From positions 186,001 to 250,000 of the forward strand of contig JAQTLE010000002.1 of NCBI GenBank assembly GCA_028715055.1: a stretch of 64,000 nucleotides of DNA, written 5' to 3'. The notes below the pieces were generated by a model. It was not told the DNA's origin, made no database searches, and saw nothing but the letters and a program-made list of their open reading frames with translations. Shown here piece by piece: positions 20,304 to 39,133 of this stretch. The stretch's first letter is position 1. Each line of letters opens with the position of its first letter. The stretch is from Sulfurovaceae bacterium (lineage in GTDB: Bacteria; Campylobacterota; Campylobacteria; Campylobacterales; Sulfurovaceae). A program made the position numbers and the translations under genes.

Positions 20304-22262
20304 ATGTTAAAAGAATACTACTATCCAAATCAACAACACGTGCCATTTGCGGCAATAAAGAGTATGGATGAATACAATGCTCTTATGAATGAGGCAAAAG
20401 AGGATTACGAAGGATTTTGGGGGCGTTTTGCAAAAGAAAAAATAGACTGGATTAAGCCATTTGATACCGTTTTGGATGAATCAAATGCTCCATTTTATAA
20501 ATGGTTTGTAGGCGGTAAGCTAAACGTTGCTCATCAATGTGTAGATAGACATCTGGCAACCAAAAAAAATAAAGCAGCCATTATTTTTGAGGGAGATAAT
20601 GGAGATCAAAAGATATTAACATATAGAGAATTGTCTTATGAAGTAAACAAAACCGCAAATATGTTTAAAAATCAATTTGATATCAAAAAAGGCGATAGGG
20701 TAGTTCTTTATATGCCAATGATCCCTGAGGCTGCCATAACCATGTTAGCATGTGCGAAGATTGGAGCTATCCATTCGGTTGTATTTGGAGGATTCAGTGC
20801 AGAAGCGCTAAAAGATAGAATTATTGATGCAGAAGCAAAATTAGTAGTTACTGCCGATGGGGCATTCCGTAAAGGATCTCCTTATATGCTTAAGCCGGTT
20901 GTAGATGAAGCACTAAAAAGCGGGTGTGAATGTGTTAAAGCAGTTTGCGTAGTAGAAAGAAACGGCGAAGATGTTGACTGGATAGAAGGCAGAGATTATT
21001 CGTATAACGAGCTTATCAAAAATGAATCTTCTGTTTGTGCAAGTGAAATTATGGATAGCGAAGATCCTTTGTTTTTGCTATATACAAGTGGTAGTACAGG
21101 CAAACCAAAAGGCGTACAACACTCTCAGGCAGGATATATACTTTGGGCTCAAATGACTATGGAGTGGGTATTTGACCTAAAAGAAAATGATACCTATTGG
21201 TGTACTGCCGATGTGGGTTGGATCACGGGGCATACTTATATAGTTTACGGTCCTTTGGCTGCCGGAGCTACAACTATAATGTTCGAAGGCGTGCCTACTT
21301 TCCCTGATGCCGGAAGATGCTGGAAGATGGTAGAGGAATATCAAATAAATCAATTTTATACCGCACCTACCGCCATAAGATTGCTTCATAAAATGGGAGT
21401 CGATGAGCCTAAAAAATACAACTTGTCAAGCCTAAGAATCTTAGGAACCGTAGGAGAGCCGATAGATCCGGCTGCATGGAAATGGTATTATGAAGAAATA
21501 GGCGGTAGCAAATGTAGTATAGTTGATACTTATTGGCAGACAGAAACAGGTGGACATATGATATCGCCATTGCCATTTGCTACTCCGATAAGACCTGCTT
21601 GTGCTACATTTCCTCTTCCTGGAATAATGGCAGAAATTATAGACGAAGATGGACATCCAGCTCCCGTTGGAGAAAAAGGTTTTATGTGTATTACAAAACC
21701 ATGGCCTAGTATGATAAGAAATATCTGGGGAGATAGCGAAAGATTTGTAAAATCATATTTCGGTGATTGTAAAAAAGATGGCAAACCAGTTTATTTTACA
21801 GGTGATGGTGCAATGATAGATGAAGATGGTTATATGACGATTACCGGTAGAACAGATGACGTTATTAATGTAAGCGGCCACCGCATGGGTACAGCTGAAG
21901 TTGAAGCAGCTATCAAAAAACATGCTGCAGTTGCAGCGGTAGCCGTAGTAGGCAAACCTCATCCTATAAAAGGAGAGGGAATTTTTTCATATGTTGTATT
22001 GAAAAATGAGGATACATTGGCTGAAGAGATAGCACTTGTTAAAGAGATAAATAATGTTATTAAACAAGAGATTGGCGCTATAGCTGTGTGTGATGATATC
22101 GTATTTGTACCTGATCTTCCAAAAACAAGATCAGGCAAGATAATGAGACGTATATTACGTTCTATTGTAAAAGGCGAGGCAATTACTCAAGATACATCTA
22201 CACTTGAAGATCCAAGCATTGTAGGCAAAATAGAGTCTATAGTAAATTCTTGCAAACTATAA
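20304..22262 (+). CDS. acs: Acetyl-CoA synthetase (AMP-forming)
   Basis: 652 residues, the usual family length. It activates acetate to acetyl-CoA through acetyl-AMP. Motifs include [13 protein letters not shown] (P-loop), [11 protein letters not shown], the [13 protein letters not shown] hinge and [13 protein letters not shown] with K612, the lysine usually inactivated by acetylation. AGAGGGG precedes the ATG. It is the last gene of the acetate locus and is closed by a strong hairpin. Confidence 0.97.
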
Positions 22263-22270
22263 TTCTCCAA

Positions 22271-22297
22271 ATTTGGTGCAAAAATATTGCACCAAAT
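22271..22297. terminator. Bidirectional terminator between acs and udg
   Basis: ATTTGGTGCAA-AAATA-TTGCACCAAAT is a perfect 11-bp stem in the 42-base gap between two convergent genes, with AT-rich flanks on both sides. Confidence 0.85.
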
Positions 22298-22304
22298 AAT
22301 AACT

Positions 22305-22976
22305 TCATATCAAAGCATTATAAAGCTGATTTATCTTTTTAAAATCTTCCCATGCTTCATGTTTGTATGATGGATTTCTAAGTAAAAAACTAGGATGATA
22401 TGTCGGCACTATCGTAAAACTATCTTTTTCAATAACAGTTCCATGAATTTTAGATATTTGAGTTTCATCTCCAGTTAAATAATGATATGCAGTAGCGCCT
22501 AGGGTAACTATTATTTTTGGCTTGATTAATTCTATTTGTTTATATAAGTAGGGCAAACAGGTATGAGCCTCTACAGAGCTTGGTTCGCGATTTTGAGGCG
22601 GACGACATTTGACTATATTTGTTATATATACATGTTCTTTTGGTATTTTTAGTACATTTGACATTATCTTATCCAGCATTTCTCCGCTTCGTCCAACAAA
22701 TGGTTTACCTGATGCATCTTCATTTATGCCAGGAGCTTCTCCAATAAAAAAAATCTTTGCATTTAAACTGCCTTCGCCAAAGACTGCATTTTTTCGATGC
22801 TTGCTTAGTTCGCACAAATGACAATTATTGATTTGTTTTTTGAGCTCTTGCATATTTTGCGGTAGCTGTAGAGATATTTCGTCTTCTTTATAAGGAGATA
22901 TATTGCTATAGTTATAGCCCAATAAACGAAGAGTATATAATTGTTTTAATTGTAACGCGTTGTAGAGGTTTTTCAT
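22305..22976 (-). CDS. Family 4-type uracil-DNA glycosylase with iron-sulfur cluster
   Basis: 223 residues. It removes uracil from DNA to start base-excision repair. Four cysteines suited to a 4Fe-4S cluster are present (C52, C55, C124, C140), with GEAPG at 79-83 and the second active-site motif around H194 (YHPSFLLR). The N-terminal extension of about 40 residues is common in bacterial members. Single gene, facing acs. Confidence 0.92.
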   Translation of the reverse strand: MKNLYNALQLKQLYTLRLLGYNYSNISPYKEDEISLQLPQNMQELKKQINNCHLCELSKHRKNAVFGEGSLNAKIFFIGEAPGINEDASGKPFVGRSGEMLDKIMSNVLKIPKEHVYITNIVKCRPPQNREPSSVEAHTCLPYLYKQIELIKPKIIVTLGATAYHYLTGDETQISKIHGTVIEKDSFTIVPTYHPSFLLRNPSYKHEAWEDFKKINQLYNALI

Positions 22977-23034
22977 AATCGTATTGTATCTAATTTTGAT
23001 TTATTGAGGGAATGATGGATAAAAAAATATGGTC

Positions 23035-23060
23035 ATAAAGCCCAAAATACAGGGCTTTAT
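23035..23060 (-). terminator. Terminator behind the superoxide reductase gene
   Basis: ATAAAGCCC and GGGCTTTAT form a 9-bp stem with an 8-base loop just after the stop codon; on the minus strand a run of seven T's follows a few bases later. Confidence 0.8.
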
Positions 23061-23063
23061 AGT

Positions 23064-23450
23064 TTATTCTGTAACTTCTACTTCTACAGGATTACTTTCC
23101 CAAACACCATGTTTAGTACAGTAACCGTGTGCTACAAGGTTAAGTTTTTTACCGGTTGGGATGATAGTAAAAGTCGTTGTGTTGTGTGCTTTTGTATTTC
23201 CTAGTGTGCCAGAAACATATGTGGCTCCAGCAAGTTTTGTTTCACCATCAAAAAGTGTCACAGATTCGATATAGTGGTCAAAATCATCCGGGTGAGTGTA
23301 TTCATTGCCCATTTTTACAGTTACCTCGAATGGCTCTCCTACTTTTGCTGTTTTTGCACAATGAATAAAAGGAGAGTGTCTATCTATATAATCTTTTTTA
23401 GCTTCTCTCTCAACTGTGTCTATATCAATGTATCTATTTATTTTTGGCAT
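23064..23450 (-). CDS. Class II superoxide reductase (neelaredoxin-like)
   Basis: 128 residues. It reduces superoxide to peroxide at a mononuclear iron without making oxygen, which suits a microaerophile. The iron ligands are recognisable: H25 (DRHSPFI), H53 and H59 (THPDDFDHYIE), C111 and H114 (YCTKHGVWE). There is no N-terminal desulforedoxin domain. The usual EKHVP loop reads DRHSP, so the catalytic Glu and Lys are replaced by Asp and Arg. Ribosome site AGGAGA. Confidence 0.88.
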   Translation of the reverse strand: MPKINRYIDIDTVEREAKKDYIDRHSPFIHCAKTAKVGEPFEVTVKMGNEYTHPDDFDHYIESVTLFDGETKLAGATYVSGTLGNTKAHNTTTFTIIPTGKKLNLVAHGYCTKHGVWESNPVEVEVTE

Positions 23451-23481
23451 TTTTGTTCTCCTAATTTTTATCGACGGAACA

Positions 23482-23533
23482 ATTATAACACAAAAAGTAA
23501 TAAAATTAGGATAAAATTTGTCCTAATTTTATT
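23482..23533 (-). promoter_or_regulatory. Superoxide reductase promoter region with long palindrome
   Basis: A 13-bp perfect inverted repeat AATAAAATTAGGA/TCCTAATTTTATT (23499-23511, 23521-23533) lies directly after the ppnP stop codon. On the minus strand a TATAAT box at 23487-23482 follows it, placing the expected -35 region inside the palindrome. It may be the ppnP terminator, an operator for the superoxide reductase gene, or both. Confidence 0.55.
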
Positions 23534-23542
23534 AAATTATAT

Positions 23543-23854
23543 TCAAACTAAATATGAACAACAGTAATCAGTAATTGTAATGACTTCAAGAGAGAATTTG
23601 CTATTCGCAGGAACATGAAATGAAGCCGGAGCTATGATATCTATCCAATCATCATTTTGAGGAAGTTTAACGCGAAGTTTACCGCTCATTATTTCCATCT
23701 CTTCGGCACTGTCTGTTCCAAACTCATAATCTCCAGGTAACATGATACCCAATGTTTTTTTTGTACCGTCAGGAAATACTACTGTACGAGAAGTAACTTT
23801 CCCATCAAAGTAAATATTAGCCTCTTTTATTACGTCAACTTTTGAAAAAATCAT
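23543..23854 (-). CDS. ppnP: Pyrimidine/purine nucleoside phosphorylase (DUF1255)
   Basis: 103 residues, a small cupin that phosphorolyses nucleosides. The conserved core is visible: FDGKVTSRTV, FPDGTKKTLGIMLPGDYEF, the EEMEIMSGKL stretch and the FHVPANSKFSLEV strand. Length matches the family. It lies 18 bases downstream of the lipoprotein gene on the same strand. Confidence 0.93.
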   Translation of the reverse strand: MIFSKVDVIKEANIYFDGKVTSRTVVFPDGTKKTLGIMLPGDYEFGTDSAEEMEIMSGKLRVKLPQNDDWIDIIAPASFHVPANSKFSLEVITITDYCCSYLV

Positions 23855-23872
23855 TTTTTATTATCCTTTTTG

Positions 23873-24220
23873 TTATTTTTGAAGCCATTTGGCTATTAGA
23901 GCAAATTCATAATAATTTGATGGATATCTGGTCACACCGGCTTCTATAAATTGTGTTTCCGTGATTTGCTTATCCCATAATTTGTATGATATTTTTTTGA
24001 ACCAATCTTTTTCCAACTCTGTGTCAAGATTGATTTTTTTATAATTTGGATCTTGTTTTACTATTGAGGCAACTTGTTCCAATTTTTCGTCAAAAGCTTT
24101 TTCTTTTGCCGTTGGTAATCGTTCAGAATTATTACCCATATATGTTGTATCTAACACAGGAGCACATCCTGCAAAGAAAACAGATATTATTAAGATACTT
24201 AAGATGCTAATATTTTTCAA
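23873..24220 (-). CDS. Small lipoprotein of unknown function
   Basis: 115 residues with a lipoprotein signal peptide (SILIISVFFAGC, lipidated C18). The mature part is mostly helical and charged, with aromatic residues near the end (WFKKISYKLWDKQ; YYEFALIAKWLQK). No family recognised. It probably shares a transcript with ppnP. Confidence 0.75.
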   Translation of the reverse strand: MKNISILSILIISVFFAGCAPVLDTTYMGNNSERLPTAKEKAFDEKLEQVASIVKQDPNYKKINLDTELEKDWFKKISYKLWDKQITETQFIEAGVTRYPSNYYEFALIAKWLQK

Positions 24221-24276
24221 TCTCGATCCTTATAAGTATATAATCTAACAATTGTATATTTAAAATTATAACATAA

Positions 24277-24777
24277 TTAATTGATGCGGTATATAAATTT
24301 ATTATTTTTCCTATCTTTGATTACATTTTTGTAATTACCAAAACATCCATTCATGGCTATAAAGACCCCAGAAGTATTAAGAAATTGTACATATCCGACT
24401 GCAGAAGCAAAATTTGCTGTTGCTTCAACAGGATCAATACTAAATGGTACCATTGCTCCCGTTAAAACTATCATATGAGGCAAATCAGACTTGGCCAAAA
24501 TCTCTGCGCTCATATGCATTGTATCCGTACCATGAACAACTATAATTTTAGTAGATGAAGATTGGGATTTAATGGTATCCAATAATAATGTCCTATCATC
24601 ATCGTTAAATTCCAAACTATCTTTACCTATTATATTTATAGTATTTATTTTGCATAACCATTTATCCGTGATCTCTTTGATAGTCTTTGAAGTTGTTTCT
24701 ATTTCAAGTAAACCATTTGCTGGGTTGTAATATTTATTGAATGTTCCACCGGTATTAATGCAAAGAATATTCTTCAT
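24277..24777 (-). CDS. Asparaginase-like protein, N-terminal domain only
   Basis: 166 residues matching the first domain of type I/II L-asparaginases: NTGGTF carries the first catalytic Thr (about 12) and VVHGTDTM carries the Thr-Asp pair (about 80-85), with VLTGAMVPFSIDPVEATANF following. The C-terminal domain (another ~150 residues) is absent and a stop follows with no sign of a remnant. Whether the half protein is active is unclear. It diverges from fabI. Confidence 0.8.
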   Translation of the reverse strand: MKNILCINTGGTFNKYYNPANGLLEIETTSKTIKEITDKWLCKINTINIIGKDSLEFNDDDRTLLLDTIKSQSSSTKIIVVHGTDTMHMSAEILAKSDLPHMIVLTGAMVPFSIDPVEATANFASAVGYVQFLNTSGVFIAMNGCFGNYKNVIKDRKNNKFIYRIN

Positions 24778-24854
24778 TATTTCTCATTACTTTTTTGTCT
24801 TTTATCTTAATAATGGTAATATATCATAAAAATTTTTATATGGAGATATTGCTT

Positions 24855-25679
24855 ATGATTATGCGGGGCAAAAAAGGTGTTATTTTAGGAATTGCGAATA
24901 AAAAATCAATAGCCTATGGTATTGCAAAAGCGTGCAGAGAACAGGGTGCTGATATAGCAATTACATTTTTAAATGAAAGATTTGAAGACAAATTAGCCCC
25001 TGTTGCAGATGAATTGAATTGTAACGGTAGATTTTATCCATGTGATGTAAGCAAACCAGAAGAGATAGCAGCCTTAAGAGAATCACTAGCTCGTGATTTT
25101 GGCGAGATTGATTTTGTAGTACACTCTATTGCTTTTGCTCCAAAAGAAGGTTTGAACGGCCGTTTTGTAGACATTTCAAAAGAAGCATTTGATATAGCTA
25201 TGGATATATCTGTTTATTCACTTATAGAAATTACTAGAGAGTTGAAACCTATTTTATCTAAGAATTCTTCTGTTTTGACACTTAGTTATTACGGCGGTGT
25301 TAAATATATACCAAATTATAACCTTATGGGTGTAGCAAAAGCTGCTTTAGAGATGACAACTAAATATCTTGCGGAAGATCTTGGCAAAGACGGCATAAGA
25401 GTCAATGCTATTTCTGCAGGACCTATTAAGACTTTAGCTGCTGCTGGAATAGGAGAATTTGGATTTATGCTCAAATGGAACGCAGCTCATGCACCGCTTA
25501 AGCAAAATGTAACTATAGAACAAGTAGGGAATAGCGGTATGTATCTGCTCTCAGATTTGAGCAGCGGCGTAACCGGAGAGATACATTACGTAGATGCCGG
25601 ATATAATATTATGGGTATGCCTGCAACCAAATTTGATGAAAACGGTAAGGTTAAGCTAGCTTGGAATGGTGAGAATTAA
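24855..25679 (+). CDS. fabI: Enoyl-[acyl-carrier-protein] reductase (NADH)
   Basis: Last reduction in each round of type II fatty-acid elongation. I start it at ATG 24855 (GGAGA 8 bases upstream), giving MIMRGKKGVILGIANKKS, which matches FabI start patterns in the phylum; the longer reading from 24795 lacks support. 274 residues. The nucleotide-binding glycine region, SIAFAPKE and the catalytic Tyr-x6-Lys (YNLMGVAK) are present. The rRNA methyltransferase gene follows after 3 bases. Confidence 0.95.
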   Translation: MIMRGKKGVILGIANKKSIAYGIAKACREQGADIAITFLNERFEDKLAPVADELNCNGRFYPCDVSKPEEIAALRESLARDFGEIDFVVHSIAFAPKEGLNGRFVDISKEAFDIAMDISVYSLIEITRELKPILSKNSSVLTLSYYGGVKYIPNYNLMGVAKAALEMTTKYLAEDLGKDGIRVNAISAGPIKTLAAAGIGEFGFMLKWNAAHAPLKQNVTIEQVGNSGMYLLSDLSSGVTGEIHYVDAGYNIMGMPATKFDENGKVKLAWNGEN

Positions 25680-25682
25680 TAG

Positions 25683-26441
25683 TTGCAAGATTCTCAAAAC
25701 TATCAAAACAAAAAGGCAGCATTTGCAAAAATGTTGACCTTGTATGGGCGCAATGCTGTATTAGAAGCACTCATGGAAAATAGTATTGTGCCATTCAAAC
25801 TACATCTTTCTACTTCTAATCAAAAAGCACCGATACTTGACCAAATGCAAGAAATCGCACAAAAAAGAGGTGTAGAGATATGTTTTCACGATAAGCTTTC
25901 ACTTTCACATATCTCTAAAAATGCCAAGCAAGACCAAGGCGTAGCACTTGATATCAAAATGGATAGTTTCATAGATGAAGATAGTTTTATAGCAAATAAT
26001 ATTAATTATACTATTATAGCTCTAGATGCTATATCTAATCCTCAAAATTTAGGTATGATCATACGCTCAGCAGCCGCTGGGAATATAGATGCGATCATAT
26101 TGCCCAAAAAGGGAGCATCATCTATTACGCCACTTGTCATCAAAGCAAGTGTCGGGACATTATTTAAGATACCTATAATAAATAGCAACTCTCTAACTAA
26201 CACGCTCAAGAAATTTCAAGACAATGGGGCCAAACTTTACACTCTATCATCACATGCCAAAAAGAACTATAAAGACATAGATTATAATAAGAAAAAAATA
26301 TTTATCTTAGGTAATGAGACAAATGGGGTATGTAAAGAGATAGAACGATTAAGCGATGAGAATATATCTATACCTATGCGTAGAGGCGTAGAATCGCTTA
26401 ATGTTGCAGTTACTGCATCACTGCTTGCTTTTTTAGATTAA
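25683..26441 (+). CDS. rlmB: SpoU/TrmH-family rRNA 2'-O-methyltransferase
   Basis: 252 residues. An N-terminal substrate-binding domain starts with LYGRNAVLEALMEN, and the knotted SPOUT domain carries IALDAISNPQNLGMIIRSA, ILGNETNGV and RGVESLNVAVTASLLAF. This motif set is typical of RlmB, which methylates a guanosine in 23S rRNA. The start is TTG at 25683 with GGTGAG upstream; an ATG at 25731 is the other possibility and would match shorter homologues. Coupled with fabI. Confidence 0.85.
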   Translation: MQDSQNYQNKKAAFAKMLTLYGRNAVLEALMENSIVPFKLHLSTSNQKAPILDQMQEIAQKRGVEICFHDKLSLSHISKNAKQDQGVALDIKMDSFIDEDSFIANNINYTIIALDAISNPQNLGMIIRSAAAGNIDAIILPKKGASSITPLVIKASVGTLFKIPIINSNSLTNTLKKFQDNGAKLYTLSSHAKKNYKDIDYNKKKIFILGNETNGVCKEIERLSDENISIPMRRGVESLNVAVTASLLAFLD

Positions 26442-26472
26442 TATAGTGTGACATCGAACTTTCAACCTAATT

Positions 26473-27399
26473 TTATAAACTTTTATTTTTTAATATTAAT
26501 ACGGCATTTTTATAGATAGGCTCATCAATAAACCCATATCTATTATCCATGAAGCCATTTATGCCTTTTGATGAGTTGAGCTCAAAAATCTCTTTTATAT
26601 ATTTGGCTCTTCTGATTTCCGTATCATCTATATTAAAAACTTCATTAGCGATGGTAACTTGTTTTGGACCCATGCAGGCTTTGCTAGTAAATCCGAGTGA
26701 TTTTTCATATTCGCACCATTCACGAAACTCCACAGTGTTGTTGTAGTCTTGATACATAAATGAAACTGGGTGGATGTTTACTGTTTTACAGTCTATGAGA
26801 AATTTTGCAAGGATATAATCCATTGTAGGATTGGCAATTTTAACTAACGATTGTGGCAGATTTAGAGATGCCAGTAAGTCGAGTATTCCGAGGTTTGCAG
26901 TAGTTACGCGATCGTCGATTTTAAGTGCCTTTATGTCAGCAAAAGCCTCTTTGGTTTCTAGTGATACATGCAATTCATAATCAGTTTTTAAAATTTTTAG
27001 AGCTGATTCAAGCTCTTTTGGACTTTTTACTTTTGGAAGCCTGATCGCATCAAAACCAAAACCATTCAAAAATTCTATCTCTTCCTTGCCGCCATCATCA
27101 AAAGGATTTGTACGAATAACTATAAAACTTTTTGAATTTTTTAGATGGGATAAAAATAGAGCTATATTATAAAGTGCCTCTTTTTTTCTTGACGGTGCGA
27201 TAGCATCTTCCAGATTGAGTGTAACTACATCAGTTATATTTTCATCAAGTAAGTTTAGATGCTTGAGGTTTAGTGGATTTAGCATCATATTCGAGCGCCT
27301 TAGTGTACCGATGCACGGAGTTTTGTGTTTATTCCCAAATATCTTAGCATATTCTTCTAGTGTCAATTTTTCTAAGTTTGAAATATCTTTAAATATCAT
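26473..27399 (-). CDS. HpcH/HpaI aldolase / citrate-lyase beta-subunit family protein
   Basis: 308 residues with a CitE-like TIM-barrel pattern: TLRRSNMMLNPLN near the start, LNLEDAIAPSRK (acidic metal ligand), VIRTNPFDDGG, LPKVKSPKEL and the VSLETKEAFADI strand. A C-C lyase acting on a CoA ester or oxo-acid is likely, substrate unknown. It has no citrate-lyase partner genes nearby. Its 5' end is one arm of the duplicated region that flanks the foreign ATPase gene. Confidence 0.85.
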   Translation of the reverse strand: MIFKDISNLEKLTLEEYAKIFGNKHKTPCIGTLRRSNMMLNPLNLKHLNLLDENITDVVTLNLEDAIAPSRKKEALYNIALFLSHLKNSKSFIVIRTNPFDDGGKEEIEFLNGFGFDAIRLPKVKSPKELESALKILKTDYELHVSLETKEAFADIKALKIDDRVTTANLGILDLLASLNLPQSLVKIANPTMDYILAKFLIDCKTVNIHPVSFMYQDYNNTVEFREWCEYEKSLGFTSKACMGPKQVTIANEVFNIDDTEIRRAKYIKEIFELNSSKGINGFMDNRYGFIDEPIYKNAVLILKNKSL

Positions 27400-27570
27400 A
27401 ATAGTTTTTTCCTGATGATAAAAATAATTTAGATAAGTATAATGTGCAATTCTAAAAATAGGGCATCATCCATGAGAATCATCGTAAGCGTAATATTGTT
27501 TTTTCCATCTAATCTATGCGGATAATCTCATTTTAGCAAGCAAATCCTGAAAAGTAACAAACAATCTAAA
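27265..27570. repeat. Left copy of the diverged direct repeat flanking the ATPase gene
   Basis: It consists of the first 45 codons of the intact aldolase gene (27265-27399), its 72-base divergent promoter spacer and a broken RNase T2 start (27472 to about 27570). The right copy at 29979-30305 has the same order. The aldolase arms are both exactly 135 bases, and a 33-base stretch beginning GAGGTTTAGT differs at only two positions, but the rest is strongly diverged. Confidence 0.75.
27472..27570 (+). pseudogene. Broken 5' fragment of the RNase T2 gene
   Basis: The fragment begins ATGAGAATCATCGTAAGCG and aligns with the start of the intact gene at 30188 (ATGAGAATTATCATAAGTA). One extra base shifts the frame near codon 16; after that shift the reading DNLILASKS parallels DNFIVANKS of the intact protein, and a TGA replaces the following cysteine codon. 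Similarity fades just before the ATPase stop codon. Confidence 0.8.
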
Positions 27571-27573
27571 AAT

Positions 27574-29952
27574 TCAGACATTGAAGGCTAAAAAACGCAT
27601 CAAGCCTAACTTGAGCAGGTCAGCAGAGGCTAAAAAAAGAATTGCTAGGAGTAGCAAACCGCCGATCAACGACAGTGGAATTGGGGCCATCAACCAACCT
27701 TGGGTCGCCATAAGAGTGACTATGCCTAGGTCTAAAATAGTGGCAAGAATGATCCAGCGGCCAGGATGAGGCTTCTCCCAAAAATAGCCTCTCGTACGCA
27801 TCGAGTAGAGATTGGCCTGCGTACTACCAAAGACGAGCCACACAAAGATGAGAGTTTGGGATTGGGCAATACTCAATCGTAACACGACAACCGCAACCCA
27901 CCACACTGTAGCACTTAGCAATATGAGTAGTGCCACAAAGCCCAGACTTCTCATGATCATTGAGCGAACCGCCCAACGTTCAGGAATAAGCGAAGGTGTC
28001 ACTCGATCAGTCGAAAGCGACATGGTTGCAGCATCAGTGACGAACACAAGCAATACCAATAGGGTGGGGTTGAGAACGAAGCGTCCAAAAACGATGACGC
28101 CGAGCGCAAGAAATGGCGGAATAAATATTCTTCGCGTCATCATGGTCATGATCCATGTCTGCATGCGCTGATAAATGCGCCGACTTTCCTCGATAGCCTT
28201 GACGACCTCGTCCAGACCTGGGTGCGTCAGCACCAGACTTGCTGCGGCTTTAGCGACATCGGTTGCCGTGGCCACAGCAATGCCGATATCCGCCTGTCGT
28301 AGCGCAGGTGCATCATTGACCCCATCACCGGTCATTCCGACCACATGACCAGCCTTCTGAAGTGCTTGAACTAAGAAGAATTTATCCTGTGGCAAGACCC
28401 CTGCGAAAATCTCATAATGAGTGATGGTATCGGGGTCGATATTCTCATGGAGTGTTCCAGCAGGTGCTGCTTTGCCGGTCATTCCGACTTTGGTCGCTAC
28501 GGCACTCGCAGTCTCTTCGCCGTCGCCAGTGACGAGAATGACGCGCACACCGTGCTTGCGTAGTGCGGTAATGAGTGCTGCAGAATCGGGACGCGGCGGG
28601 TCATTCAATGCAATGAGGCCGGCGAGGTGGAGCTTGGTACCAGTTCCTGTCGCCACCGCTAGGACACGCGACCCGCTAGCTGCAAACTGCTCGACCTGTG
28701 GTGCGATCTGCGACCATGGTATTTGTGCCAGTTCAGCGAGCACTGATGGCGCCCCCTTGATTATACGCACTATCTGATCGTCTTGGCGGATCGATACCTC
28801 AGAGCGCTTAGTGTCAGGATCGAATGGAATGAAGGCGAAGCGTGGTGGTATGTTGGCAGTAAGCCCTCGTTCGTGCGCAGCCTGTAAAATGGCAAGATCG
28901 AGTGGATCCTGCGTAGCCTCATCAGAAGCCAGAGCCGCCAACCTTAGCACCTCGTCTTCCGTAGCTAGATTGAGTGCCATTAGCCTCTCGACGCTTAGAC
29001 GGTTTTCAGTGATAGTGCCGGTCTTGTCAAGGCAGATAATGTTCATAGCCGCTGCATCTTGGATCGCCGATAGATGCGTGACCAGAATTCCGTTTTCAGC
29101 CAGTGCGCGGGCACCGATTGCTGCAGACATCGTGAACATCGTCGGCAAGGCTACCGGGACAGCGGCTACCAACAGCATAAGACCCAGAGGAAGCATGTTG
29201 AGCAATGATTCACCATGGATCAGCGTAGAGATGAAGACCGCCAATGCGAGGACGATCACCAAAACAGCTAAATACCGTGTAATTTGCAGGATTAGCAATT
29301 CTAGGTGGCTTGGAGCCTCGGCAACCCGAACCAGTTCAACCGTTTTCCCGAAATACGTCTTGGTGCCTGTTGCCGTTACCATGCCTGTTGCCTCGCCACG
29401 GGTGACTTGTGAACCGGCGTAGCTTGAGCTTCCTGCTTCACGGTCAACAGAACGCGATTCGCCCGTCAACTGTGATTGATCCACTTGAATATGGCCATCG
29501 GTGAGTTGGATATCCGCTGGTACAACATCACCTACACGCAACCGTATTAAGTCACCTGGCACCAGTTCAGCAGACGGGATCATTTGCCAAAGGCCATCCC
29601 GATGCACGCGTGCAGTAATCGTTAGGCGCTGGCGCAACAGAGCAAGCGCCTGCTGTGCGCGGTTTTCCTGAAGAAAACCCATCGCTGCGTTGAACACCAA
29701 TAACGCGATAATCACTATTGCCTCGATCCATCGTCCCAGAATTAAGTCCAGAATGATAGCTAGTTCGAGCATCCATGGCACCATCCCCCAAAACTTATGC
29801 AATAAGGATCTAATTCTATGGGAATGCTCTTGCGCCAGCATATTTTGACCAATTTGCTGGAGTCGTTCTTTGGCATCTAGACTGGTCAATCCCTCATATG
29901 TGGAGGTTGCAAGCGGTACTGTTGGTTTTTGTTCATTTATTTTTTTGATCAT
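27574..29952 (-). CDS. Plasma-membrane proton-efflux P-type ATPase (foreign cassette)
   Basis: 792 residues of the type IIIA (H+-exporting) P-type ATPase family. Motifs: the VDQSQLTGES actuator, PVALPTM in the membrane core, the phosphorylation site CLDKTGTITEN, KGAPSVL for ATP binding and MTGDGVNDAPAL. About ten helices. It pumps protons, or possibly another cation, outward. It is clearly richer in G+C than every neighbour and uses GC-rich codons, so it was acquired horizontally, except that its first codons are AT-rich. The start forms an ATGA overlap with an aldolase remnant. Long antisense frames opposite it are composition artefacts. Confidence 0.9.
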   Translation of the reverse strand: MIKKINEQKPTVPLATSTYEGLTSLDAKERLQQIGQNMLAQEHSHRIRSLLHKFWGMVPWMLELAIILDLILGRWIEAIVIIALLVFNAAMGFLQENRAQQALALLRQRLTITARVHRDGLWQMIPSAELVPGDLIRLRVGDVVPADIQLTDGHIQVDQSQLTGESRSVDREAGSSSYAGSQVTRGEATGMVTATGTKTYFGKTVELVRVAEAPSHLELLILQITRYLAVLVIVLALAVFISTLIHGESLLNMLPLGLMLLVAAVPVALPTMFTMSAAIGARALAENGILVTHLSAIQDAAAMNIICLDKTGTITENRLSVERLMALNLATEDEVLRLAALASDEATQDPLDLAILQAAHERGLTANIPPRFAFIPFDPDTKRSEVSIRQDDQIVRIIKGAPSVLAELAQIPWSQIAPQVEQFAASGSRVLAVATGTGTKLHLAGLIALNDPPRPDSAALITALRKHGVRVILVTGDGEETASAVATKVGMTGKAAPAGTLHENIDPDTITHYEIFAGVLPQDKFFLVQALQKAGHVVGMTGDGVNDAPALRQADIGIAVATATDVAKAAASLVLTHPGLDEVVKAIEESRRIYQRMQTWIMTMMTRRIFIPPFLALGVIVFGRFVLNPTLLVLLVFVTDAATMSLSTDRVTPSLIPERWAVRSMIMRSLGFVALLILLSATVWWVAVVVLRLSIAQSQTLIFVWLVFGSTQANLYSMRTRGYFWEKPHPGRWIILATILDLGIVTLMATQGWLMAPIPLSLIGGLLLLAILFLASADLLKLGLMRFLAFNV

Positions 29953-30113
29953 AAGTCATTTACATTGTTTAAAGGTTTGAGGTTTAGTAGATTTAGCATC
30001 ATATTCGAACGATGAAGTTTGTTTGCAGGAGCTATTTTATTTTTATTTTCAAATAGTTTCTTTTTTTCTTTCATGCTTTTGTGGTTAAATATACTCAAAT
30101 CATTAAATATCAT
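29949..30113 (-). pseudogene. Truncated aldolase (CitE-like) 5' fragment fused upstream of the ATPase
   Basis: A 54-codon frame from ATG 30113 parallels the first residues of the aldolase at 26473-27399: both begin MIF, share LxRSNMML at residues 33-40, and I count about 23 identities in 46 aligned residues without gaps. It ends in TGA at 29951-29949, overlapping the ATPase start codon (ATGA). It may now serve as a translated leader for the ATPase. Confidence 0.8.
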
Positions 30114-30305
30114 TAAATCTCTTTCAATCTAGCTAAAATGGTATTGATAGTATAATACAACAATTTTTAAAAAACAGGGTAACGTATATGAGAATTATCA
30201 TAAGTATAATATTATTTTTAAATATAATTTACGCAGATAATTTTATAGTAGCAAACAAGTCTTGCAAAGCCAGTAATAATCTTAAAGCAACCAAAAACTC
30301 AGGCA
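29979..30305. repeat. Right copy of the diverged direct repeat flanking the ATPase gene
   Basis: It contains the aldolase remnant (29979-30113), a 74-base spacer and the intact beginning of the RNase T2 gene. Both spacers share a GATA(AG)TATAAT -10-like block and an A-rich stretch ending in AGGG just before the RNase T2 start. The order mirrors the left copy at 27265-27570. Confidence 0.75.
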
Positions 30306-31114
30306 ATATCTCAGTAGTCCCTACTCAAAGATATAGAATTTTGGACGAAAAACAAACTAGGATTTATGTACAAATTCCTTATGCCTCACCAAGCGGAAGA
30401 TGGGTAGATAAAAGCTGTTTTTACAGCTATAAAATACCGCAAAAATCAAATGTAAATAATTCTATTATTGTTTCTCGAAAACTTCCGCCACAATTTTTAT
30501 TATCACTTAGTTGGCATGACGCATTTTGCGAAACACATAAAAATAAAAAAGAGTGCAGACAAAGCTTATTTGAAAACAAAGAACATGGTTTTGTGCTTCA
30601 TGGGCTTTGGCCTCAGCCTGAAAACAGGGTTTATTGCGGTTTGGATAAAAAGTTTGTAGGTATGGATAAAAATAAACAATGGATAAGATTGCCGGATATT
30701 AAATTGTCTCAAAAAACAAGACATGAACTTTCGATTGTTATGCCGGCAATAGTTTCAAATCTAGAAAAACATGAATGGATAAAGCACGGTACATGCAGCA
30801 ATTTGAGTCAAGAAGAATATTTCACAAGAGCAGCCAGTTATACAAAACAATTCAACAGTTCCATTTTGGCTGACTTTATTAATTCAAATAGAGGAAAAAG
30901 TGTAAAATTGAAAGATATTAAAAGCTTAGCCGATAGATCTTTTGGTATAGGAAGCGGGGATAAAATTGAAATGGTATGCAATGACGGTCTTATGACAGAA
31001 ATTAGATTAAGCCTTGGCAGTGGTGATATGTCACTTGCCAATTCAATAAAAAATGGTGAAAAAATTAGACCATCTTGTCAAAATGGCATCATAGACAAGG
31101 CCGATTGGTTATGA
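30188..31114 (+). CDS. Secreted RNase T2-family ribonuclease
   Basis: 308 residues with a signal peptide (about 1-17). An SH3-like N-terminal region (about 18-90) precedes the RNase T2 domain with both active-site motifs: FVLHGLWPQ (first His) and KHEWIKHGTCS (second His and Glu). It should cleave RNA in the periplasm through a 2',3'-cyclic intermediate. It overlaps the helicase gene by 4 bases. A broken copy of its start lies on the far side of the ATPase cassette. Confidence 0.92.
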   Translation: MRIIISIILFLNIIYADNFIVANKSCKASNNLKATKNSGNISVVPTQRYRILDEKQTRIYVQIPYASPSGRWVDKSCFYSYKIPQKSNVNNSIIVSRKLPPQFLLSLSWHDAFCETHKNKKECRQSLFENKEHGFVLHGLWPQPENRVYCGLDKKFVGMDKNKQWIRLPDIKLSQKTRHELSIVMPAIVSNLEKHEWIKHGTCSNLSQEEYFTRAASYTKQFNSSILADFINSNRGKSVKLKDIKSLADRSFGIGSGDKIEMVCNDGLMTEIRLSLGSGDMSLANSIKNGEKIRPSCQNGIIDKADWL

Positions 31115-32388
31115 AAAGTCTAAAATCGATTTGTAAATTACTTGAAAATAGAAATGTATTTCTTACCGGCGGTGCAGGGGTAGGGAAGAGTCATATGACA
31201 TCGCAGATCATAGGACATTACAAAAGCCTTGATAAAAATATTGTGGCCCTTGGATCTACTGGTGTAAGTGCTGTAGCTATTGGCGGCGTTACAGTGCATA
31301 GTTTTTTTATATTTGGAATATCAAATAGCTTTGAAGAGCTTGAGATTAATGACAAAAAAGCTAAACATAGATTAAATGAACTAAAAAAAATCATAGCTAT
31401 AACTGATTTGATAATTATCGATGAAATATCAATGATCAGCACCTCATTACTTGATATGATTGCTTATAGACTAGAAAGCATGGCTTATAGCGGTAAGATA
31501 TTATTTGTAGGAGATTTTTTTCAACTACCGCCCGTAGTAAAATATGCACCAAGAGTAGGGCTTTTTGAAGAATTGCTTTATGCTTTTGAAAGCAGTGCGT
31601 GGGAAAATTTTAATCCTGCTTTGGTTGAGTTGACACAAATGCATCGTACCGATGATGTTTATTTTACTCAAATTTTATCTAAGATAAGACAAGGTATTTG
31701 TGATACTGAGGTATTGGAATATTTAAAATCATTACAATCAAATGATATAAATCCAAAAGCTACATATCTTTTTGGCAGGAATAATGAAGTAGAACATATG
31801 AATCATCAAAAACTTCAAGAATTGCAGGCAAAAGAGGTTATGCTACTAGCTGATCATAAAAATATGGAAAAGGTGCATGAAAAGAGATTGGAGACTTGGC
31901 AAAAGGTATTGCCGGTATCAAATATGCTTACTCTTAAGGTCGGTGCCCCGGTGCTATTTTGTGTAAACAAATGGGGTAAATTTGCAAATGGCGAAAGAGG
32001 TGTAATAAAAGAGATAAATAATGATGCGATAATTGTAGAAAAAGATGATGGATTTGTAAAAGTTGAGCCGCACTTATTTGAATTAACCGAGATCCATCCT
32101 GGTAAAGATGGAAAATTAGAGTCTGTCACGCTTGCTACAATGGCACAATTCCCATTAAGACTGGCATATGCTATCACTATTCACAAATCTCAAGGTATGA
32201 GCATAGAGCATCTGGTTTGCAATGTAGACAACATATTTGCCCCTAGTCAATTTTATGTTGCTATTTCTCGCGCAATCAATCCTAAATTTCTCAAAATTGA
32301 TTTTAGCAAAGGTAATTTTGAATCATATGCAAATCGCATAATCAACGTAGATAACCGAGTAAAAGAGTATTACAACTCTATACTATGA
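31111..32388 (+). CDS. PIF1/RecD-like superfamily 1 DNA helicase
   Basis: 425 residues from ATG 31111, which overlaps the RNase T2 stop (ATGA). Walker A LTGGAGVGKSHMT, Walker B LIIIDEISMIS, the GDFFQLPPV motif III and the C-terminal UvrD-like motif YAITIHKSQGMSIEHLV are all seen, which fits PIF1-like 5'-3' helicases. It meets the lipid-kinase-like gene tail to tail with a 6-base overlap. Confidence 0.9.
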   Translation: MKSLKSICKLLENRNVFLTGGAGVGKSHMTSQIIGHYKSLDKNIVALGSTGVSAVAIGGVTVHSFFIFGISNSFEELEINDKKAKHRLNELKKIIAITDLIIIDEISMISTSLLDMIAYRLESMAYSGKILFVGDFFQLPPVVKYAPRVGLFEELLYAFESSAWENFNPALVELTQMHRTDDVYFTQILSKIRQGICDTEVLEYLKSLQSNDINPKATYLFGRNNEVEHMNHQKLQELQAKEVMLLADHKNMEKVHEKRLETWQKVLPVSNMLTLKVGAPVLFCVNKWGKFANGERGVIKEINNDAIIVEKDDGFVKVEPHLFELTEIHPGKDGKLESVTLATMAQFPLRLAYAITIHKSQGMSIEHLVCNVDNIFAPSQFYVAISRAINPKFLKIDFSKGNFESYANRIINVDNRVKEYYNSIL

Positions 32389-33060
32389 TATAAGTGTAAC
32401 ACTTCCTGCCAAGTCAACATTAATAGTAGATTGATTAAAAATAACAATGTCACCGTCTAGCTCTATAAGATTATGGCTGCTTTCAAGATCTTTCGAAAAC
32501 GGTACTACCTTGCCGTAGAAATTACCGAATCTTTTTATCATTTTTAGTGGCGTAAAAATAAAAAAACGATGCTTGGATAACAATTCAAAAGGTGTCATTA
32601 CGATATGCAAAGGTAAAAGATATATTAATGACATAAGATACTTGATCATACCGTTTTTTATGATGCCGAAACGAAGAGTTTCTGATAGAAGTATATGTCT
32701 CAAATCGCCCATATTTCCTGCAGAAAATAAAAAAATCTCATCATTTAACTTATAAATAGGTTGAGATATTTTTTTAACCTCTTGGTTATTTGTTAGCTTT
32801 TGCAATACCACTTCCATATTTGGAAGTCTATTGATTTTAGAGACCACATTAAACGATCCGGCTGTATCTATGATAAAATTCGGGTTGTGCTGATTATAAT
32901 AAAAAAACTGCACAACTCTTCTAATAGCCCCATCTCCACCGTGCACAATAATGTAATTATATTGTTCTATATCGGATAATGTTTTAAGATCTCTAAAGTT
33001 GACAGATGTTATATCAAGTCCGTTAAATACGACTTTTCTGTCAACAGAAAGTATTTTCAT
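32383..33060 (-). CDS. Diacylglycerol-kinase-like catalytic-domain protein
   Basis: 225 residues. The nucleotide-binding motif IIVHGGDGAIRRVVQ (about 37-51) and the later DTAGSFNVVSK and SAGNMGDLRHIL stretches match the lipid/NAD-kinase fold. The protein is shorter than YegS-type lipid kinases (about 300), so substrate and activity are uncertain. It overlaps the thioredoxin-like lipoprotein gene by one base. Confidence 0.75.
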   Translation of the reverse strand: MKILSVDRKVVFNGLDITSVNFRDLKTLSDIEQYNYIIVHGGDGAIRRVVQFFYYNQHNPNFIIDTAGSFNVVSKINRLPNMEVVLQKLTNNQEVKKISQPIYKLNDEIFLFSAGNMGDLRHILLSETLRFGIIKNGMIKYLMSLIYLLPLHIVMTPFELLSKHRFFIFTPLKMIKRFGNFYGKVVPFSKDLESSHNLIELDGDIVIFNQSTINVDLAGSVTLIS

Positions 33061-33512
33061 TATTTTTCTTTAGCCGGATATTTGGCGTTATAAGCACTTA
33101 TGGCTTCATTTAAAGTATCTTTGAAGTTAGCCTCATCTTTGCCGCCTATCATTGGATCAATAAGTTGTTCATTTTTGCTATCAATAAAATACAAGGTAGG
33201 CGTGCCATAAGGAGTTTCTAGCCCCTTTGGCAATTTTCCAACTTCGCTTATGTCAACAAATATAACGTTAAATTTTTTTGACAATATAGTTTTAATTTCA
33301 GTTCTTTGCATGATAGATTTAACATGTTTGCATGCTCCGCAACCATCTTGCGTAACAAATAAGATGTTTATTTTACCTGAAACTGTTTTTATATTTTGCG
33401 AAGATGCAGCCTCAGACGCAGAGGAGGTTTTATTGTCAGCTGAATTGCTGCAAGATATCATTGTTAGAGCACTCATCATTATCATAATATTTTTTAGATA
33501 TTTAACTTTCAT
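33060..33512 (-). CDS. Thioredoxin-fold lipoprotein
   Basis: 150 residues. Lipoprotein signal peptide (MMSALTMISC), a serine/alanine-rich linker, then a thioredoxin fold with the redox motif DGCGACKHV and the cis-Pro strand YGTPTLYFID. It resembles SoxW/thioredoxin-like proteins that reduce periplasmic disulfides. No sox genes are seen nearby. Confidence 0.85.
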   Translation of the reverse strand: MKVKYLKNIMIMMSALTMISCSNSADNKTSSASEAASSQNIKTVSGKINILFVTQDGCGACKHVKSIMQRTEIKTILSKKFNVIFVDISEVGKLPKGLETPYGTPTLYFIDSKNEQLIDPMIGGKDEANFKDTLNEAISAYNAKYPAKEK

Positions 33513-33561
33513 AATTATCCTTTTTTAATATATTGTAGCCAAACGAACTGTGACCAATGCG

Positions 33562-34551
33562 CTAATCGATATTGAAAAGATTATATTTCTGCTGTAATTG
33601 CGGCAAAATGCTCTTATCTAATGTGTACACAAAAGCGTAATTGTAGATAAGTTTTTTTAAATTATTATGAACATCATCTATATTATCGAACCAAATTGGA
33701 TTTTCATCTAAGTCTAATTTGGTTTTTCTAGGTGTTAAAACTATACTTTTTATCCACCTGATGCGATATTTTATATATTCTTTGGCTGAATATATATCAT
33801 CTAAATTATCGGCAAAAATTACAACCTTATCACTCTTGCCAGATGCAAGGACTTGGAGCTGATTGTCTATAAAAACAGGCAGAAAGTGTTTGGTATATTT
33901 AAGTTTTTCTATGTCATATCTTATGTGCTGTTCATCCAAGAAATGCAATACTTTGCTTAGGTGTTTTATATGAAATGGGGCTATTTCATAATTTTGATAA
34001 ACATATCCATCGATTTTGAGTGAACATCTAAACATTGTTTCAGATATCAATTGGATTTCTTTTTTTTCTTCAAGTTTTACAACATCTGGTTTTATGGTGG
34101 TAAGAAGCTCAGCATCATCGCCGACAAAAAGATGATCAGACGAATTAACTATCTGTTCAAAAGCTTTCTTCCAATCGCTAGATATAATAGTAATATTTCT
34201 TTTATCAACAGCGAGCATTTTTAGAAAACTAAGTTCATGTGCGTTTAGTAAATAAAAATCAGCCTCTTTTTTTAATAAAACGTATCTTACTAATTTCATT
34301 GCAGCTAGTTTGATATCGCTTACTTTTATCCAAGCTATTTCATCATCTTTTTTTGTTATAGATTCGTCATCATATACTATGCCATACGCGCCATTTTCTA
34401 TGGCATTGTCTATCTCCTCTTGAATAGAGGAGAAAAAAAGATCACCGTGTTCTATCTTTGATGGATAGACGCTGGCACTTTCGATAGCTTGTACCTTTGG
34501 AGTACCTACAAGGACTCCATCCGTGATGTTTACAATATCGCTAATATTCAT
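33562..34551 (-). CDS. Mur-ligase-like protein lacking the ATP-binding motif
   Basis: 329 residues. The first 80 residues follow the N-terminal domain of MurE/MurF ligases (HGDLFFSSIQEEIDNAIENG, then AYGIVYDDE). No GTNGKT-type P-loop is found later, so the protein cannot be an ordinary Mur ligase. Its stop/start overlap with metG (TAATG type) indicates co-transcription. A structural or regulatory role in cell-wall synthesis is possible but unproven. Confidence 0.6.
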   Translation of the reverse strand: MNISDIVNITDGVLVGTPKVQAIESASVYPSKIEHGDLFFSSIQEEIDNAIENGAYGIVYDDESITKKDDEIAWIKVSDIKLAAMKLVRYVLLKKEADFYLLNAHELSFLKMLAVDKRNITIISSDWKKAFEQIVNSSDHLFVGDDAELLTTIKPDVVKLEEKKEIQLISETMFRCSLKIDGYVYQNYEIAPFHIKHLSKVLHFLDEQHIRYDIEKLKYTKHFLPVFIDNQLQVLASGKSDKVVIFADNLDDIYSAKEYIKYRIRWIKSIVLTPRKTKLDLDENPIWFDNIDDVHNNLKKLIYNYAFVYTLDKSILPQLQQKYNLFNID

Positions 34552-36497
34552 TATTTAATAGGTGTCCCGTTTCTTTTTGGTGCTTCTGGGCGAATTAGAT
34601 GCAAGCCGTTTTCATCTTTGGCTGCTAGAAGCATACCTTCGCTATGATTGCCCATTAATTTTGCCGGTTTAAGGTTTGCTACTACGCACACTTGTGTATT
34701 TACAAGCTGTTCTGGAGTATAAAACTCTTTGATCCCTGCTACAATTTGTCTAGGTTTATCTTCACCAATATCAACTTGTAATATCAACAATCTATCGCTT
34801 TTTTGGACTTCGTTTGCTTCTACAATAGTTCCTATTTTTAGAGAAGTTAGAAAGAATTGATCTATGCTGATCAGGGCTATGCCCTCATCTTCTTTTTTTG
34901 TTTCTTGTTTTTCTTCTTTCGGCTTTTCTTGTGCAGATGTCGGTTCAACATGGGCCAAAAGAGGTTCTTCTATGCGTGGAAAGAGCGGAGGGATTTTTGA
35001 TATCACAAAAGTATCCAATAATTCATGGTTTTTAATAAAACGTAGCCATGAGCTATTATCTATATCAAAGCTTAGAGAAGCCGAAATCTTTTTAGTGACA
35101 CTTGGCATAACAGAGTAGAGCATTATAGAAACACGAGCCAATATATTTGCTATCAATGCCACCAAAGCCATGGCCTCTTCATCTTTCCCATCTTTCATAA
35201 GTACCCATGGTTGATATTTATCAATCGCTCTATTTGCTACACTAAGCGGTCTCCATAGTTCTTCGAGATAACGATGGATCTGCATCTCAAACAAGTACGG
35301 CTCGAGTTTGTTAAATGATTCTATAACTTCATCAAGTTCATTTTGATAATATTTAGAAACATTGCTAGAATCTATACGACCTTCAAAATATTTTTCACTC
35401 ATGCCTATCAGACGGTTAAGCAGATTACCAAGATCGTTACCAAGGTCATTATTGATCCTGTCTATGAGTGCTTTTTGGCTAAAATCTCCATCTCCGCCAA
35501 AAGGTACTTCGCGAAGCATAAAATAGCGGAAATTATCTAATCCATAAGCATCTGCCACTTCTTTTGGATTGATAACATTGCCTTTGGATTTACTCATTTT
35601 TTGACCGTCTCTAGTCCACCAACCATGCGCAGCAACGTGTTTTGGCAATGGCATATCCAAACTCATCAAAAATGCAGGCCAATATATAGCATGGAAACGC
35701 AAAATATCTTTTCCTATTAGATGCACACGAGCCGGCCAATACTTCATTTTGTTATTATCGTTACCATATCCAAGAGCTGTTAGATAGTTCATAAGTGCAT
35801 CAAGCCATACATACATTACATGTTTTGGGTCGTTGAGACTTTCTGGTAATTTTACACCCCAATCGAAACTTGTACGAGTAATAGACAGATCATCAAGTCC
35901 ACTCTCTACGAATCTGATTACTTCATTTCGTTTACTTTTTGGCAAGATACATTCAGGGTTTTCATTGTACCAAGCTAAAAGCTTATCTTGATAAGCTGAG
36001 AGTTTGAAAAAATAGCTTTCTTCCTCTACTATAGTAGTAGCCTTACCACACTCCGGACAAAATTCATCATCGACTAACTGTGTTTTTGGGAAGAACGTTT
36101 CACATGAGATGCAATAGTGTCCTTTGTAAATGTCTTTGTAGATATCGCCTTTGTCAAACATTTTGCTAAATGCATATTGTACGCCTTTTATATGAGCTTC
36201 ATCGGTAGTGCGTATAAAAGCATCATAACTGATCTCAAATTCATCCCAGAGATTTCTAAATGTTGCTGAGATTTTATCAGCATAAGCTTGTGGAGTTTCA
36301 CCTCGAGCTTTAGCGGCTTCTTCTATTTTTTGACCATGCTCGTCTGTGCCGGTAAGAAAAAATGTATCATGGCCGATCATACGAGAATATCTTGATATAG
36401 TATCAGCAATAATAGTAGTGTATGCATGACCGATATGCGGAACATCATTAACATAATATATAGGAGTTGTGATATAAACTGGTTTTTGACAAGTCAT
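34551..36497 (-). CDS. metG: Methionyl-tRNA synthetase
   Basis: 648 residues. Charges tRNA-Met with methionine. Class I motifs HIGH (21-24) and KMSKSKG, zinc-knuckle cysteines CISC and CPEC in the connective peptide, and a C-terminal tRNA-binding OB domain (about 545-648) after a lysine/glutamate-rich linker. Full length. The 302-base gap upstream separates it from the DedA-PAP2 gene. Confidence 0.97.
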   Translation of the reverse strand: MTCQKPVYITTPIYYVNDVPHIGHAYTTIIADTISRYSRMIGHDTFFLTGTDEHGQKIEEAAKARGETPQAYADKISATFRNLWDEFEISYDAFIRTTDEAHIKGVQYAFSKMFDKGDIYKDIYKGHYCISCETFFPKTQLVDDEFCPECGKATTIVEEESYFFKLSAYQDKLLAWYNENPECILPKSKRNEVIRFVESGLDDLSITRTSFDWGVKLPESLNDPKHVMYVWLDALMNYLTALGYGNDNNKMKYWPARVHLIGKDILRFHAIYWPAFLMSLDMPLPKHVAAHGWWTRDGQKMSKSKGNVINPKEVADAYGLDNFRYFMLREVPFGGDGDFSQKALIDRINNDLGNDLGNLLNRLIGMSEKYFEGRIDSSNVSKYYQNELDEVIESFNKLEPYLFEMQIHRYLEELWRPLSVANRAIDKYQPWVLMKDGKDEEAMALVALIANILARVSIMLYSVMPSVTKKISASLSFDIDNSSWLRFIKNHELLDTFVISKIPPLFPRIEEPLLAHVEPTSAQEKPKEEKQETKKEDEGIALISIDQFFLTSLKIGTIVEANEVQKSDRLLILQVDIGEDKPRQIVAGIKEFYTPEQLVNTQVCVVANLKPAKLMGNHSEGMLLAAKDENGLHLIRPEAPKRNGTPIK

Positions 36498-36799
36498 GAA
36501 GTTTCCTTAACAAATGAGTTTTCTACTTCGTAAAGCTCGTAGCTTTTCAAGAAGGATTTTACAAAATTTGGAGTGTAAAATATAGATATGATTGTATCCT
36601 AAAGATGCTGTGGTTTGGTTGGATATTAATTTATCACTTTTTCGTTATAATCTTTCAAATATTATCAAGGCGTTTAATCTCGTCCTATAATTTTTCTCTA
36701 CGGAAATATATAAGAAAAATTAATATTCATACGCAAAATAATGAGTCGCATCGGAATTGCGATCCGTCTTAACATGGTTGTTCGGCGCAACAAATATCC
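36498..36799. other. Gap between the DedA-PAP2 gene and metG, no gene found
   Basis: No plausible coding frame. It contains an inverted repeat AATTTTTCT/AGAAAAATT (36689-36697, 36713-36721), which could end the DedA-PAP2 transcript, and a smaller TCGCA/TGCGA repeat around 36751-36767. The metG promoter must lie in the left part, but no clear box pair is evident. Confidence 0.6.
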
Positions 36800-38911: not shown

Positions 38912-39106
38912 GTCTTTGCCCTTACGCCTTTGATGCTATATGCAGACGGCGAATTCGTATTATTAACGAATACTCATAGCATAAATTCTAGCATCTAAAC
39001 CTGTTATTGGATTTAAAACATAGTATTAGTCTTTTAAATCCAAGGCGTTTACTCGTTTCCATTATATTGATGGGAAGCATATCAAACCAATTTAAGAAAA
39101 AATGCA

Positions 39107-39133
39107 GGCAGGCAAGTTTTATAGACTCCTGCC
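39107..39133 (-). terminator. Terminator of the mobB-fbp operon
   Basis: On the minus strand GGCAGG and CCTGCC pair, with an inner AGT/ACT, followed by TGCATTTTTTC. It lies about 30 bases after the last stop codon. The remaining gap to 38911 contains an ATTCGT/ACGAAT inverted repeat near 38953-38970 and no gene. Confidence 0.75.

Follow-up and report, generated by a model that had tools for sequence, protein, structure and literature searches.

A GC-rich P-type ATPase gene between diverged repeats of an aldolase/RNase T2 promoter region in a Sulfurovaceae bacterium: probable entry by a single homologous crossover

We analysed a stretch of 64,000 nucleotides (nt) from a Sulfurovaceae bacterium (assembly GCA_028715055.1, contig JAQTLE010000002.1, positions 186,001 to 250,000), hereafter called the window, with positions counted from its first letter. 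The host genome comprises 1.76 Mb in 23 contigs, and the window is AT-rich. The gene order examined is fabI, an rlmB-like methylase gene, an aldolase gene (minus strand), a P-type ATPase gene (minus strand), an RNase T2 gene (plus strand) and a PIF1/RecD-like helicase gene. A broken RNase T2 start separates the aldolase from the ATPase, and a broken aldolase start separates the ATPase from RNase T2. An initial annotation, made from the letters alone, had described this locus as a proton-ATPase cassette, rich in guanine and cytosine (GC-rich), between diverged direct repeats of a divergent promoter. The coordinates and the description hold in the present analysis.

The whole aldolase gene lies at 26473-27399 on the minus strand and codes for 308 amino acids. 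Its CitE/HpcH-like body (26473..27297, minus strand, codons 308 to 35) matches HpcH_HpaI (PF03328), has high nucleotide identity to the congener G002 and appears native; codons 1-34 (27298..27399, minus strand) have low identity to relatives and appear foreign. To the right lie a divergent promoter region (27400..27471), which the alignment of the two arms and the comparison of the promoter and RNase start mark as foreign and which presumably serves the aldolase now, and a similarly foreign RNase T2 start (27472..27573, plus strand), broken by a frameshift and a stop. The latter was recognized from its reading frames and from its similarity to the intact RNase T2 of the same locus (62.5% identity to residues 10-33, E 0.001). 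Next comes the ATPase gene (27574..29952, minus strand, 792 amino acids), which by profile, motifs and composition is H+-ATPase-like and putatively foreign. Its start overlaps, in the letters ATGA (29949..29952, minus strand), the stop of a truncated aldolase start of 54 codons (29949..30113, minus strand), which forms a leader to the ATPase and has 72% amino-acid identity to G002 and G003 over 53 residues. A divergent promoter region (30114..30187) and an intact RNase T2 gene of 308 codons (30188..31114, plus strand, PF00445, 69% amino-acid identity to G002) complete the right flank; leader, promoter and RNase T2 gene all appear native. The reading frames agree with the initial assignment of an intact aldolase and broken RNase T2 to the left flank and the reverse to the right.

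The two aldolase starts (27265-27399 and 29979-30113) are of 135 bases each and stand in exact register, as had been noted from the letters. Direct repeats D1 (45 nt, 89%), D3 and D5 keep a constant spacing of 2714 across the aldolase part, and the arms can be aligned across about 320 nt. When the left arm was used as a 319-nt DNA query against its own genome, the right arm was matched at 67% over 317 nt (E 1.1e-15). The aldolase starts have 14 of 36 residues in common in codons 1-36, and 47% over residues 1-53, close to the half estimated initially; promoter and RNase start differ between the arms at 61 of 173 nt. The longest exact match between the arms, read off D1, is about 19 nt. D1 encodes a conserved RSNMMLN-LNLK stretch, referred to below as the patch, and its copies lie at 27253..27297 (left) and 29967..30011 (right).

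Nine window proteins were compared by tblastn with 30 aldolase loci, namely the locus itself and 29 from relatives; these extend about 1.5 kb to each side, less at contig ends, with only 78 nt upstream of the aldolase in L038. An ATPase match was obtained at the own locus only and at none of the 29 others. Relatives without the ATPase have a single region in which aldolase and RNase T2 diverge. RNase T2 is divergent from the aldolase in five of nine congener loci (L026-L029, L052), and in the other four (L030, L031, L044, L054) the helicase gene lies beside the aldolase and no RNase T2 was detected. The aldolase was not found in the genome G005, which is 74% complete. No relative compared presented the ATPase and one arm in a different ancestral arrangement, and the similarity of the arms persisted on full alignment.

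The arms were then compared with relatives base by base. Identity to G002 in 60-nt windows was 75-97% along the aldolase from 26503 to 27223 (63% in the first window) and 53-73% beyond 27223 up to the ATPase; in the right arm it was 85-97% in windows 29983-30283 and 78% in the first one, at 29953. Over the promoter and RNase start, the right arm differed from G002 at 12 of 193 nt and from G003 at 38 of 193, compared with 62 and 70 of 173 for the left arm. For the aldolase N-terminus, the differences from G002 amounted to 46 of 108 nt on the left and 16 of 108 on the right. In codons 1-36 the right arm has 27 of 36 residues in common with both G002 and G003, and for the left arm the highest such count is 19 of 36 among the full-length N-termini compared, with 16 of 28 reached against some shorter ones. 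The idle aldolase fragment on the right thereby differs from G002 at 9 of 36 residues, and the working one on the left at 19 of 36. Four tests of third codon positions, which are mostly silent, were made. Between the left copy and G002, 21 of 36 such positions differ in the N-terminus and 63 of 227 in the body (p 0.0005); the same contrast was seen against G003 (p 0.0011), and the control pair G002-G003 gave 6 of 36 and 70 of 227 (p 0.11). These comparisons strongly support a foreign left arm and a native right arm. One repeat appears native; the other appears foreign from a crossover point within the shared region onwards.

The crossover point was sought by a maximum chi-square scan of the left arm and aldolase against G002, G003, G008 and G007. 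The break fell at 27298 in all four cases, with chi-square values of 63.6, 71.6, 58.5 and 67.7, respectively, none of which was reached in 2000 permutations. Four control congener pairs gave 19.2, 8.0, 13.0 and 14.4, at other places. Since 27298 is the right edge of the left copy of D1, the aldolase is, on these scans, a mosaic with its break point at the edge of the conserved patch; a crossover point had been looked for on the advice of the initial annotation. Within the patch (codons 36-46) the arms differ at 2 of 33 nt, compared with 5-8 of 33 for either arm, and 6-8 of 33 for the right copy taken by itself, against six congeners. Both copies read TCG and CTA AAC CTC; the six congeners shown read TCA in place of the former, and CTA AAC CTC occurs in none of them. 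Either the exchange itself made the two copies alike, by sharing or conversion of the patch, or the variants were already in the host lineage.

We consider it most likely that the left arm and the ATPase gene entered as one foreign unit at the patch, through a single homologous crossover with a molecule that was circular or had repeated ends. The native chromosome would have started with one aldolase (minus) and RNase T2 (plus) region. The incoming DNA would have carried a diverged relative's version of this region, with about the first 50 aldolase codons, the promoter and the first ~33 codons of RNase T2, joined to a GC-rich ATPase gene. Recombination in the patch, with the molecule circular or bearing the patch at both ends, would have added a unit of 2714 bp without loss of native sequence. 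The target sequence is intact, and the site is empty in the relatives compared. The coincidence of both junctions at one patch, together with the complete retention of native sequence, speaks for a circle or for a molecule with repeated ends; the scar of a linear molecule bearing the patch at each end would look no different from that of a circle. Entry of foreign DNA with a relative's copy of the region had been the proposal of the initial annotation, and it draws support from the native right arm, the non-native left arm and the break at 27298.

Several observations weigh against this interpretation. A search of 175 family genomes for the donor of the left arm, with four candidates scored per genome, gave a full-length match only for the own right arm and G002, both at 67%. 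Most of the best other family matches are confined to the patch, at about the first 43 nt of the left arm, and a few extend to 85 nt; G003 is 68% identical over 151 nt of its promoter end, and many weak short matches fall elsewhere in the AT-rich arm. Moreover, a fast or exchanged aldolase N-terminus is not unique to the left arm. In all eight pairs of G001 or G009 with G002, G003, G007 or G008, the amino acids of N-terminus and body contrast in the same way (p 2e-5 to 5e-8); the contrast is weak in G002-G007 and G003-G007 (p 0.005 and 0.016), and none of these cases involves an insertion. The N-termini of G009 and G001 differ from those of the same four congeners at 52-58 of 108 nt, so that this region is exchanged, or diverging, in the genus apart from the ATPase event. 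The permutations of the chi-square scan treat sites as independent, and the controls show them to be too lenient: the values of the pairs G002-G003, G003-G008 and G002-G007 were reached in 4, 20 and 13 of 2000 permutations, and that of the remaining pair in 200. The crossover base inside the patch is not readable, since both copies share variants that the six congeners lack. Finally, the approximately unbiased (AU) test does not reject a clade of left and right arms, either with 108 columns and 14 rows (p 0.129) or in a second test with 6 rows (p 0.504); the arm alignments are short, and these results favour neither side. Resolution is poor in the tree of aldolase bodies, where the window aldolase does not stand next to G002 and G003. 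Of the arm phylogeny suggested at the outset, the nucleotide comparison stands, with a native-like right arm and a left arm that is not, but the short-arm trees do not settle the matter.

The strongest rival explanation places the duplication in the donor, together with the arrival of the ATPase, and has linear donor DNA entering by two ordinary crossovers, one per arm, at the patch. The variants common to both patch copies, and their closeness to each other relative to the congeners, speak for it, and partly repeated DNA is described as making tandem duplications in pneumococcus in the available part of PMC3784515. However, a donor already so built is needed, and none was found in the family and phylum searches; the right crossover would also have to fall within a few codons of the left one. 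We regard this course of events as unlikely.

A rather improbable further possibility is a relay in two steps. A bare ATPase frame would have been joined near-seamlessly, within a few bases of its start and stop, to a promoter region in another member of the family; the small unit would then move between relatives as a homology-bearing cassette, with the conserved aldolase patch as a recurrent landing site, and at every landing the pump would find a promoter in place and a coupled start.

Homology-facilitated illegitimate recombination would require a crossover at the patch for one end and a homology-free joint for the other, between the ATPase start and aldolase codon 53. Judged by eye, the ATPase begins 2 nt past the last aldolase-like codon, and the process is known in three competent species (PMC3240628, in its available part). 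Both junctions in the same patch with no native loss would then be a coincidence, and codons 47-53 on the right retain 14 of 21 nt in common with G002, so that we think this quite improbable.

In-place tandem duplication, with the ATPase inserted between the copies and the left one diverging fast, was suggested by the arms being in register, and the clade of the two arms survives the AU tests. The best placement in the 14-row tree, however, puts the right arm with G002 and G003 (86/99) and the left arm outside, without starred support, with branch lengths of 0.78 (left) and 0.08 (right). The left copy should be the slow one because it serves the working aldolase, while the right start is out of use and could change freely; the reverse is observed, with a left branch about tenfold longer although the aldolase body evolves at the usual rate, and the mostly silent third positions are affected too. 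It was set aside on the branch lengths and silent sites, not being formally rejected by the AU tests, and we hold it very improbable. Misassembly of DNA from two organisms, for which the 23 contigs leave room, is hardly credible with arms in register whose longest exact match is about 19 nt, the usual assembly words being longer than that.

A transposon or integrase element was rejected as well. In agreement with the initial annotation, no transposase or integrase was found by Pfam among the 18 larger proteins of 20304-40242, of which two matched nothing, small reading frames not having been scanned. The sole insertion-sequence name came from the helicase, which matched the IstB ATPase domain below the cut-off (21 bits, cut-off 24.1). 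No RNA element was detected in 26400-31200 at gathering score.

A single-crossover entry would be of a known kind. Campbell-type integration is an insertion-duplication, in which a non-replicating circle enters by a single crossover. As in such integrations, the insert lies between direct copies of a shared region, each hybrid around the crossover, with no target loss and no recombinase gene. Here, in contrast, the event would be natural, the homology is that of a copy from a diverged relative (about 60-67% identical), the crossover lies in a patch of ~45 nt, and the circle is presumed. The locus is most likely a well-preserved, clean and instructive case of insertion-duplication, probably bringing a foreign pump gene. 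In its available part, PMC3240628 reports that linear DNA was circularised in E. coli and then integrated by single crossing-over, besides the illegitimate events in competent species; all these routes, together with that of PMC3784515, would yield the present scar or come near it. The illegitimate events have a homologous anchor beside foreign DNA, as here, but at this locus both junctions are at the same patch. The pneumococcus merodiploids likewise carry a direct duplication from uptake of partly repeated DNA, but the one described in the available part of PMC3784515 is a 107.4-kb duplication between host repeats, and the present one is of ~0.3 kb with foreign sequence. The genome encodes the ComEC and DprA families, so that transformation is permitted, not demonstrated; the same families occur in 10 and 11 of 14 control genomes. 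It may be noted that three DprA-family matches, one nearly full-length and two partial, lie within ~21 kb at G000:C1:290421-311516 (L087-L089).

The locus is an unusually legible natural record of the entry of a foreign gene without visible mobile-element machinery, in which incoming copy, host copy and crossover patch can be told apart. If the interpretation is true, a conserved stretch of coding sequence, ~45 nt long and bordered by strongly diverged DNA, can serve as an entry site. Each neighbour gene would have kept one complete copy, and the ATPase gene would have come to lie right behind a promoter of the host, its start codon overlapping the stop of the remnant.

After such an insertion, the aldolase would be run from the foreign promoter with a foreign N-terminus, and RNase T2 would retain its native promoter. 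On the minus strand, the native aldolase promoter would read 54 aldolase codons and continue straight into the ATPase. No clear ribosome-binding site was seen before the ATPase start; with the ATGA overlap, this makes translational coupling the likely route, and the ATPase is probably translated by coupling to the aldolase remnant. The RNase fragment has a frameshift and a stop while 792 ATPase codons are open, which suggests that the insertion is not brand-new and that the ATPase has probably been kept by selection. A promoter scan gave 13 sigma-70-like sites compared with 5.3 (standard deviation 2.1) in shuffles, and a terminator scan none compared with 2.9; neither was used as evidence.

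The ATPase has a GC content at third codon positions of 0.52, compared with 0.24-0.33 in 11 other window genes, which bears out its description as GC-rich; overall GC is 0.42-0.61 in ten stretches along the gene. Its source was not found across congener, family, phylum, plasmid, viral and genome contig searches, the first three of which used overlapping genome sets. The search of 10 other congeners gave no ortholog; the best other match had 32% identity (E 4.8e-83). Among 174 other family genomes, four passed 1e-110, with 39-41% identity over about 480 residues; none of 396 other phylum genomes passed 1e-120. Plasmid matches, from at least 5000 records, were all below 60% identity, with the best 30 listed at 45.4% or less. 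A scan of genome contigs with a few peptide patterns gave one confirmed clostridial match at 27%, and a single fragment, also at 27%, came from viral contigs. At its 3′ end the ATPase reaches its stop at or inside the RNase fragment, and a 776-aa plasmid homolog (L084) ends at about the same point, so little or nothing appears to be missing there. On its Klebsiella plasmid this homolog (44.6%) adjoins crcB, enolase, phosphoglycerate mutase and universal stress genes, a neighbourhood that resembles a fluoride-resistance cluster.

The proton-ATPase label given initially fits the match to TIGR01647 (665.1 bits, cut-off 615.5). Among solved chains, those nearest to it are 5ksd (plasma membrane-type ATPase 2, AHA2) and the plasma membrane ATPases 1mhs and 7vh5, presumably fungal. 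The motifs TGES-163, DKTGT-309, KGA-399, TGD-475 and GDGVNDAPAL-542, which we take to be the catalytic ones, are intact, as in P3A plasma-membrane H+-ATPases. With the offset between chain and AHA2 numbering reckoned by us, the helix-6 Asp (Asp-684 in AHA2) aligns with Asp640 and is invariant in three sequences. The ATPase differs from P3A H+-ATPases in its short termini, as reported for prokaryotic members. At the place aligned with the helix-5 Arg (Arg-655 in AHA2) stands a Phe, with two Arg 2-3 residues before it. The roles of Asp-684 and other AHA2 residues are those given in the available part of PMC10654040, a review according to which it is undetermined what prokaryotic P3A pumps transport. 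By family, proton export is likely.

Some observations concern the same region in relatives and the wider window. The N-termini of L030 and L031 (G009 and G001) are of a very different type and near-identical to each other (7 of 108 nt differ), and their bodies differ at 127 of 681 nt; tblastn found no RNase T2 beside the aldolase in either. Repeated exchange upstream of the same patch may have occurred there. In L053 of G049, another open frame of 212 aa lies between aldolase and RNase T2 (2518-3156), and the divergent gap may have taken inserts elsewhere too. In the window itself, positions 24277-24777 hold a frame of only 166 aa that matches an Asparaginase N-terminal domain, possibly a remnant or a short form.

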